A stretch of DNA of 11,635 nt. It comes from Candidatus Hydrogenedentes bacterium CG07_land_8_20_14_0_80_42_17. Its GTDB lineage: Bacteria; UBA8481. Position numbers and translations under genes: made by a program. Location: the NCBI GenBank assembly GCA_002780065.1, contig PEWQ01000006.1, positions 1 through 11,635 of the forward strand. Direction: 5' to 3'. Numbering within the stretch: position 1 is the stretch's first letter; each line of letters starts with the position of its first letter. Below the pieces are notes generated by a model, which worked only from the letters and a program-made list of their open reading frames with translations, ran no database searches and was not told the DNA's origin. Of the stretch, positions 9,066 through 11,635 are shown one piece after another.

Positions 9066-10448
9066 ATGAAAGAAAAGAGAACAAAACTTATTTGGATTAT
9101 TTTTCTTTGCGTTTTTTCGTTTCAGATGCTGTTTGCTTCCGGACATCTATATTCTTATGACGAAGTAGTAATACTCGAGACTGCAGTCAATCTTGTTGAT
9201 CGAAGTGATCTATCGATTGATTATACTCCAGCTCGCAGAGAATATACGAAGCCTGGACTCGACGGAAAGTTGTATTCCAAATTTGGAATCGGCATGAGTG
9301 CGCTGCTGGCGCCTGTTTACGCTATTTCTGAATATTCTGCAGAATTTGCCGGTTTAACTGATTCGAAAAAAATTGCTGAAATTGCTGTTTCCTTTTCGAA
9401 TGCAGTTGTTGTTTCAATCATTGCTGTTCTAATCTTTTTAACTTTGCTGGATATGAATTATTCGATTCCTGTTGCAATATCAGCAACTATACTTCTTTCA
9501 TTTTCCACTTCGCTTGCTGTGTATGGAAGAGGTCTCTTCAATGATGCATTGACCGGACTTCTTTTATTCATTGCTTTCAGAGCATGGATAAAGGATGCGC
9601 CTATTCTATGCGGATTGGCTTCAGGCGCGACATTTGCAACTCGAGCGGAATACGTACTGATTGTGCCGATTTTTTTATTCGCTTTTGTATTAAATAATAT
9701 CGAAAATAGGAAGAGAGATTTATTTCGAAATGTCTTGAAGTTCATTCTGCCGGTGCTAGCTGTCGGTCTTCTTCTTTTAACTTACAATTTTGCGAGATTC
9801 GGTTCTCCGTTCGACCAAGGCACATTGACCGAACACCCGACCGACAGATTCGATACTCCTCTTCATGTAGGATTGATTGGACTATTATTTTCACCGGGCA
9901 AAGGATTGCTTTGGTTCGCACCTCCGATATGGCTTTCCATTTTAGGAATAAGACATCTTTATAAGAATCGCAAAAAGATTTTGTTAGTTATTGTCTCAAT
10001 AATAATTCCTATTTTGATTCTTCATTCGCTCTGGCATTCGTGGATGGGCGGCTGGTCATTTGGACCACGCCGATTAATTGCGCTATTGCCTCTTATGATG
10101 ATTCCTGCGGCTGAAATTATTACTCGATATAGAAATGACAAAACTGGAAGATTGATTTTGCCGACTGTCGGTCTTATAGGTTTTTTGATTCAGTTTGGCG
10201 GTTTGACAACAAATTTTATGAAATATATCGAGGCCGGAAATAATGCGAAAATTTCCGTAATCTGGTCGACGCTTTATACTCCTATTGCCGGGCAGTTTTA
10301 CTCGTTCATGAACGGTGAAAGAGATTTATGGTATTATTATCTTTTTGGAAACACCTCGGCCGCAGATCTGGTTGGAGGATTAATTCTCATTGCCGCATTA
10401 TTGTTTCTTCTATTGCTTATGAAAGCGCTTTCATTGCCATTTATTTAG
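9066..10448 (+). CDS. GT-C fold membrane glycosyltransferase (ArnT/PMT-like, GT39/GT83 type)
   Basis: A 460-residue polytopic inner-membrane protein with about ten hydrophobic segments. Members of this group transfer sugars from polyprenyl-phosphate carriers to lipids or proteins on the periplasmic side. After the first membrane segment comes a periplasmic loop with SYDE (D32, E33), at the place of the acidic catalytic motif of GT-C enzymes. Then follow YSKFGIGMSALLAPVYAI (70-87), a conserved-looking SPGKGLLWFAPPIW loop (about 277-290), and WHSWMGGWSFGPRRLIALLPL near 323-343. The donor and acceptor are unknown. The start at ATG 9066 lacks a close ribosome site. A three-codon frame with AAAGG upstream ends across it (ATGA), which may allow re-initiation. 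It shares a strand with the discoidin-domain gene 24 nt downstream and its stop codon lies at the edge of the inverted repeat between them. Confidence 0.82.
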   Translation: MKEKRTKLIWIIFLCVFSFQMLFASGHLYSYDEVVILETAVNLVDRSDLSIDYTPARREYTKPGLDGKLYSKFGIGMSALLAPVYAISEYSAEFAGLTDSKKIAEIAVSFSNAVVVSIIAVLIFLTLLDMNYSIPVAISATILLSFSTSLAVYGRGLFNDALTGLLLFIAFRAWIKDAPILCGLASGATFATRAEYVLIVPIFLFAFVLNNIENRKRDLFRNVLKFILPVLAVGLLLLTYNFARFGSPFDQGTLTEHPTDRFDTPLHVGLIGLLFSPGKGLLWFAPPIWLSILGIRHLYKNRKKILLVIVSIIIPILILHSLWHSWMGGWSFGPRRLIALLPLMMIPAAEIITRYRNDKTGRLILPTVGLIGFLIQFGGLTTNFMKYIEAGNNAKISVIWSTLYTPIAGQFYSFMNGERDLWYYYLFGNTSAADLVGGLILIAALLFLLLLMKALSLPFI

Positions 10449-10485
10449 TTAATTATCATTTTGGAGGTAGAAATGATAATTAACT
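10447..10485 (+). promoter_or_regulatory. Perfect 15-bp inverted repeat with the ribosome binding site in its loop
   Basis: AGTTAATTATCATTT (10447-10461) is the exact reverse complement of AAATGATAATTAACT (10471-10485). The 9-base loop, TGGAGGTAG (10462-10470), contains the GGAGG of the downstream gene. The start ATG (10473-10475) lies inside the right arm, and two bases of the upstream stop TAG (10446-10448) lie in the left arm. No T-run follows, so it does not look like a terminator. In mRNA it would form a 15-bp, mostly A-U stem that hides the start codon and displays the ribosome site. It could be a translational switch, a thermosensor or a protein-binding palindrome. Confidence 0.8.
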
Positions 10486-11635
10486 GTTCGAAATTTAATA
10501 ACTTCTTTTTGCTTTGCGGGCTGATGCTGGCGCTTGCATGTACTGAAAGCAAATCATATTCTCAAAAACTTTTACCAAATTCAGAATGGAAAGCAGATGC
10601 CTCTTCGGGTGAAGGCGACTATAAACCTGAACTTGCTATAGACGGCGATATGAAGACGCGATGGTCGTCAAACTTTACCGACGATGAATGGTTTAGAATA
10701 GATTTTGGACAGGTAAGTTCCATAGCTGGATTCAGAATAAATTGGGAAGCCGCATACGGCAGAGATTACGACATACTTCTTTCTGAAGATGGAAAGGAAT
10801 GGGAAAAAGTTTATGAGGTTCGTTGGAGCGACGGAGGAATCGATGAGTTTTTCTTTGGGCCTCACAACGCGAGATACCTGAAAATTGCAGGAGTAAAACG
10901 CGGCACTGGTTGGGGCTACTCTATTTTTGAGTGCAGTCCGATCGGCATAGATCAGATGCCGGAGCTTTCGGCAACGCCGAATTCTTCTGGATCCGATCCA
11001 TTGCTCGCTATGGATGGCTCTTTGTCGACCTCGTGGAATTCATCTCTGCCAGTACCTGAAATTCTCATCGCTGATTTAAAGAAAGAAAAAGATCTCGGCG
11101 GAATAGAATTGCACTGGTTAAAAAATTACGCATTAGAATACTCGGTCGCAGTATCAAAAGACGGTAAAGAATGGTCGGAAATATTATCGGTTAAGGATGG
11201 AGATGGAGAAGAAGACCTTCATTACTTCAACCGCGTATCTGCTCGGTACATCAAACTCTCGGTTGCTAAAAGTGGAACGAGTTCCGGTTTCGAACTTGCT
11301 GAATTGCGTCTGAAATCTGGCGACGAGTCATGGAATCCAATGCGCCACTTCGAGTCTCTTCTCTCAAGGCTTCCTGAAGGAGCGCTTCCGCGCTGGGTGA
11401 AGCGCAAGCAAGAATTCTGGACCATTACTGGCGTTTTAGAAGATAAAGAGGAATCTCTATTTTCTGAAGACGGAACCGTCGAACCTAGGGAAGGCTCATT
11501 CTCCATTATGCCGTTTCTTGTCGCAAACGGGCGGATTATGACGGGTGCATGGCGAAAAAATGGCACTTTCACGCGGCCAGAGCACGGGGCGCAGACCAAG
11601 ATGCATCCCATCGATTCGTATACCAGCGAGATCGA
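10473..11635 (+). CDS. Exported protein with two discoidin (F5/8 type C) domains, 3' end missing
   Basis: An open frame of 387 codons runs off the window end without a stop. ATG 10473 has GGAGG (10463-10467) 5 nt upstream. The N-terminus MIINCSKFNNFFLLCGLMLALACT is an export signal. C23 may be lipidated, although A-L-A-C is not an ideal lipobox. Residues about 35-153 form a discoidin-type domain: KPELAIDGDMKTRWSS, EWFRIDFGQVSSIAGFRINW, YDILLSEDGKEWEKV, ARYLKIAG. A second copy spans about 165-283: PLLAMDGSLSTSWNS, LGGIELHW, YSVAVSKDGKEWSEI, ARYIKLSV. These domains generally bind carbohydrates in bacterial secreted proteins. A following region (about 295-387, from LPEGALPRWVKRKQEFW) starts another domain that I do not recognise from this fragment. 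A glycan-active or surface-binding role is inference, in line with the glycosyltransferase gene just upstream. Confidence 0.85.
   Translation, partial: MIINCSKFNNFFLLCGLMLALACTESKSYSQKLLPNSEWKADASSGEGDYKPELAIDGDMKTRWSSNFTDDEWFRIDFGQVSSIAGFRINWEAAYGRDYDILLSEDGKEWEKVYEVRWSDGGIDEFFFGPHNARYLKIAGVKRGTGWGYSIFECSPIGIDQMPELSATPNSSGSDPLLAMDGSLSTSWNSSLPVPEILIADLKKEKDLGGIELHWLKNYALEYSVAVSKDGKEWSEILSVKDGDGEEDLHYFNRVSARYIKLSVAKSGTSSGFELAELRLKSGDESWNPMRHFESLLSRLPEGALPRWVKRKQEFWTITGVLEDKEESLFSEDGTVEPREGSFSIMPFLVANGRIMTGAWRKNGTFTRPEHGAQTKMHPIDSYTSEI

Follow-up and report, generated by a model that had tools for sequence, protein, structure and literature searches.

A perfect hairpin over the start of a discoidin gene in a Hydrogenedentes draft genome, tentatively read as an element of translational coupling

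Where one gene ends and the next begins, does a perfect hairpin enclosing stop codon, ribosome binding site and start codon govern translation of the second gene, or is it a by-product of an AT-rich sequence? The question is posed by a stretch of 11,635 nucleotides (hereafter the window), which constitutes contig C111 of the 2.39-Mb draft genome (207 contigs, 86.9% complete) of an uncultured Candidatus Hydrogenedentes bacterium.

The hairpin and its predicted fold

The structure is an inverted repeat of two 15-bp arms (10447-10461 and 10471-10485), 100% complementary and separated by 9 nt, and it is the longest inverted repeat of the window at a search distance of up to 60 nt. Inspection of the sequence bears out the initial annotation in that the arms are exact complements, the nine intervening nucleotides contain GGAGG and the ATG lies in the right arm; its placing of the upstream stop codon in the left arm was also correct, whereas the claim that only most of this codon is found there was wrong, as the hairpin includes the whole UAG (10446-10448). 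By RNA folding the stem grows to 17 bp (10446-10462 paired with 10470-10486) through two terminal U·G wobbles, U10446-G10486 and U10462-G10470. On the forward strand, this gives a left arm (10446-10462) that carries the stop codon, an apical loop of the sequence GGAGGUA (10463-10469) that presents the Shine-Dalgarno (SD) motif GGAGG (10463-10467), and a right arm (10470-10486) that holds the ATG (10473-10475) together with the next codons. Stop codon, SD and AUG are thus accommodated within one 41-nt hairpin, in which GGAGG and AUG are spaced by 5 nt and the SD is single-stranded in the predicted fold.

The energetics agree with the structure that had been proposed: positions 10430-10510 fold at -16.7 kcal/mol, as compared with -8.6 ± 2.4 kcal/mol for shuffled versions (z = -3.4; 0 of 200 equally good), and the hairpin is retained across sequence contexts of 121 to 401 nt. 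At 37 °C the RNA model pairs the AUG at 99% and the loop with the SD at about 2%, lending in silico support to the view of an SD displayed in the loop and an AUG hidden in the stem.

Rarity of the hairpin within the genome

Inverted repeats and start regions were surveyed over 1.48 Mb of the same genome, with gene starts predicted by a simple open reading frame and codon-usage script rather than taken from a curated annotation. Perfect inverted repeats (loops of 3-20 nt) with arms of 10, 11, 12, 13 and 14 bp numbered 51, 23, 6, 6 and 1, while local dinucleotide shuffles of the same 1.48 Mb yielded on average 21, 7.7, 2, 0 and 0.3. Beyond 14 bp there are the start hairpin at 15 bp and four longer cases elsewhere (17, 17, 27 and 33 bp); three rounds of shuffling produced a single 14-mer and no arm of at least 15 bp. 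A perfect repeat of 15 bp is therefore rare in this genome, yet not unique. Of all perfect inverted repeats at the 1214 predicted start regions the hairpin has the greatest length; shuffling these regions in 12 rounds (n = 1214) never gave more than 11 bp, which makes plain chance an unlikely source, as the initial annotation had held. Its folding energy ranks second among 183 starts of similarly low G+C.

The general excess of inverted repeats (2-3 times the shuffled counts at arms of 10 and 11 bp) leaves room for a mutational origin of the hairpin as well, for instance by template switching. We accordingly regard as a real possibility, if one well short of an even chance, that it is a by-product without function: a short, AT-rich imperfect repeat (the arms are 87% A+T) over an ordinary SD initiation site, perfected by template switching during replication, or arisen by chance. 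With the same standing, it would be tolerated since upstream translation keeps the stem open or since the downstream gene is dispensable. In E. coli, quasi-palindromes are known to mutate by template switching (PMC7202029), and this genome holds stems of 17-33 bp at other places, some with no predicted gene near. The same reading is favoured by the layout with SD in the loop and AUG in the stem, paired to upstream sequence, which is not enriched (24 of 693 SD genes, 18 being expected when flanks are shuffled); the class counts do not indicate a genome-wide device. Standing against it are the shuffled start regions with their 11-bp maximum and the precision with which stop, SD and start are fitted into the structure.

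Several other structures were observed alongside. The nearest second case of a perfect start-region stem belongs to a gene on the reverse strand (L177 9963-10970), whose product we take by eye from the sequence to be a fructose-bisphosphate aldolase; there an 11-bp stem, CATATCATCCT / AGGATGATATG, pairs both SD and ATG. Two perfect hairpins with loops of 3-4 nt have arms of 33 bp (L152 8561-8630, no predicted gene nearby) and 27 bp (L165 8444-8500, spanning a predicted gene end). Related AT-rich stretches around GCAAATTGAAAATTTTATTTTTCCAATTTTCATTTTTCAATTATTTC (L140 9902-9934, L162 202-234 and the first 200 bases of both L048 and L047) perhaps form a small intergenic repeat family. In the window itself, a 12-bp inverted repeat (92%) at 2510-2537, directly after the H+-pyrophosphatase gene and between convergent genes, is likely a terminator.

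The flanking genes and their relatives

The upstream gene (9066-10448, forward strand, ending in the TAG at 10446-10448) encodes a 460-aa membrane protein without a Pfam match. Its earlier label of glycosyltransferase survives in weakened form: an NCBIfam relation exists (LA_3751/LA_3752 putative glycosyltransferase), at 43 bits and hence below the cut-off of 200, and we would weakly describe the protein as a distant GT-C-like glycosyltransferase relative. The discoidin gene follows in the same direction, 24 nt separating the stop codon from the ATG at 10473. It encodes two F5/8C (discoidin) domains, probably preceded by a signal peptide (as read from the sequence without a predictor), and its frame (10473-11633, forward strand) is open at the contig end.

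The last 93 bases of the window (11543-11635, forward strand) belong to a dispersed repeat that occurs four times in the genome, always at a contig end; the three further copies (99-100% identical) lie at the ends of C105, C68 and C191. From about 11537 the discoidin frame departs from homology, a 1435-aa homologue reading ...NGRLRTYADVETEQ where the window has ...NGRIMTGAWRKNG. The repeat resembles the terminus of a mobile element and seemingly interrupts the frame; either a mobile element lies within the gene or the assembly joined the repeat there. When the C-terminal part of the distant homologue was used as query, the remaining discoidin sequence had no match in the 87% complete genome. 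The discoidin gene may thus be broken or truncated, in which case the hairpin would be under weak selection today. That the frame runs into a dispersed repeat adds to the case for a functionless origin (by chance or template switching), which becomes the more serious a rival given a possibly broken downstream frame.

The comparison covered two genomes of the phylum, namely the source genome and an order-level relative (G001). The latter carries a homologue of the upstream gene (42% identical), the sequence 3' of whose stop codon looks unrelated to the window, and a search of it for the discoidin protein gave no homologue. An orthologous hairpin region was detected neither in the phylum's two genomes nor in viral contigs, and the discoidin paralogue on contig C1 of the source genome has no such hairpin (z = -1.2). 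Both genomes of this little-sampled phylum possess a CsrA homologue (C17:10783-10938 in the source genome).

Temperature, a repressor or the DNA itself

Known RNA thermometers hide the SD or the ribosome binding site in imperfect stems. The initial annotation had raised temperature dependence on account of the mostly A-U stem, and opening the start region does become cheaper, at 9.6 kcal/mol for 60 °C as compared with 22.5 kcal/mol for 20 °C. The proposal that the hairpin is a thermometer melting at high temperature is nonetheless disfavoured, because the SD is already free (1% paired at 20 °C, hence not sequestered at low temperature) and pairing of the AUG remains above 90% in the model for temperatures up to 70 °C. 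No Rfam thermometer family matched, and the Rfam search as a whole returned no known RNA family, merely two chance-level microRNA matches. The published IVYWREL formula, which derives growth temperature from amino-acid composition, suggests as a rough estimate a growth temperature near 49 °C. ROSE and FourU thermometers resemble the present case in being mostly A-U hairpins of the start region and differ from it in that here the SD is free instead of paired, and the stem is perfect and, by prediction, stays closed to about 70 °C. Since RNA thermometers sequester the ribosome binding site (so stated in a passage of PMC7592916), we consider this the most improbable of the explanations weighed.

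A hairpin that exposes GGA over an SD also recalls the sites of CsrA-type RNA-binding repressors, for CsrA binds preferentially to GGA presented in hairpin loops, frequently in overlap with the SD (PMC7652899), and a CsrA is encoded in the genome (88 bits versus a cut-off of 27). Such a site would be very unlikely here. In the SELEX consensus, RUACARGGAUGU, ACA and GGA are both fully conserved (PMC7652899), while the hairpin reads UUGGAGGUA, in which the ACA is missing; its loop GGAGGUA is preceded by UU, in departure from the consensus and from the format of a short stem capped by six loop bases, and its GGA belongs to the SD in any case. Thus, CsrA/RsmA sites share with our hairpin the SD's GGA in a loop and a csrA gene in the genome, and are set apart from it by the consensus ACA and by stems far shorter than the 17 bp (with a loop of seven nt) observed here, a difference that also holds for the selected CsrA ligands.

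At the level of DNA, the palindromic and AT-rich sequence could be a protein-binding site, or an internal promoter with its operator. Promoter-like matches (9 of 12 positions) occur on both strands within the hairpin, as expected from its symmetry, and their number (3, versus 1.5 ± 1.1 in shuffles) is not clearly above chance. The arm has no second copy in the genome at 0 or 1 mismatch, and with up to 3 mismatches its matches (85 and 102) are similar in number to those of a reversed control (75 and 88). Being unique in the genome, the arm points to no repeat family or regulon sharing the hairpin; this speaks against the DNA-binding palindrome that the initial annotation had offered as its alternative, and we judge either DNA-level explanation highly improbable. 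A repeat-family or mobile-element footprint was likewise rejected (unique arm, no flanking duplication visible), as was an intrinsic terminator (no T-run follows the stem and none was called at the hairpin).

Coupling to upstream translation

We favour as the best single reading, at a little under an even chance, an intercistronic initiation hairpin through which the discoidin gene would rely for its translation on that of its upstream neighbour. On free mRNA the SD would be offered in the loop, reachable by a 30S subunit, the right arm meanwhile keeping the AUG and the initial codons locked. The UAG sits at the base of the left arm, and a ribosome arriving there would have to open that arm and thereby free the AUG, upon which a new 30S subunit, or the terminating one, would initiate at the strong GGAGG. 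We infer that the two genes share one mRNA, that this hairpin exists in cells and that it leads to coupling.

In the model, opening at 37 °C on free mRNA costs nothing for the SD, 8.0 kcal/mol for the AUG and 17.2 kcal/mol for the start region (-15 to +16), and the last figure drops to 6.7 kcal/mol in silico when a ribosome holds 10430-10458, the approximate footprint that we assumed for termination. Coupling is favoured by this drop, by the sharing of one 41-nt hairpin by stop, SD and start between co-directional genes at 24 nt, and by a hairpin length that is the greatest among the 1214 starts and beyond the shuffles. Short spacing of co-directional genes, one mark of coupled pairs, is present in the sequence, and a ribosome-disruptable structure over the downstream start, another, is present in silico only. 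The earlier suggestion that expression depends on ribosomes finishing the upstream gene is hence plausible, while its support is inferential.

The coupling reading is weakened because the hairpin has no orthologue and thus neither covariation nor conservation behind it, because its layout class is not enriched, because the discoidin gene may be broken, and because occluding the left arm leaves room in the model for alternative structures, in which the AUG is paired at 0.66-0.93 (37 °C) and the SD in part. It is also weakened by a review (PMC12548453) which, while documenting RNA-unfolding translational coupling as an established mechanism, reports a negative correlation in one screen between coupling and structure directly after the stop codon, and indicates that at close gene spacing the terminating ribosome may block binding of the second.

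The layout would be compatible with reinitiation at the SD by the very 30S subunit that has just terminated. A more elaborate form, a two-step gate in which the SD loop docks the 30S subunit with the AUG held shut until a terminating upstream ribosome or a factor releases the start, seems unlikely.

Coupling by RNA unfolding is a known kind of arrangement, of which we describe a single case. As in MS2 coat-lysis, f1 VII-IX and E. coli rpmI-rplT, an intercistronic structure lies on the downstream start, where upstream ribosomes would open it; unlike in those systems, the SD occupies the apical loop, the stem is perfect over 15 bp and reaches 17 bp when wobbles are counted, the stop codon stands at the stem foot, and coupling is predicted from sequence. 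We stress that the hairpin is one instance, without comparative support, in the draft genome of an uncultured bacterium, and that the gene it would control is maybe truncated. If the coupling is real, its perfect stem, with SD in the loop, AUG in the stem and stop codon at the foot, would make it a clean natural construct for separating 30S binding from the opening of the start codon.
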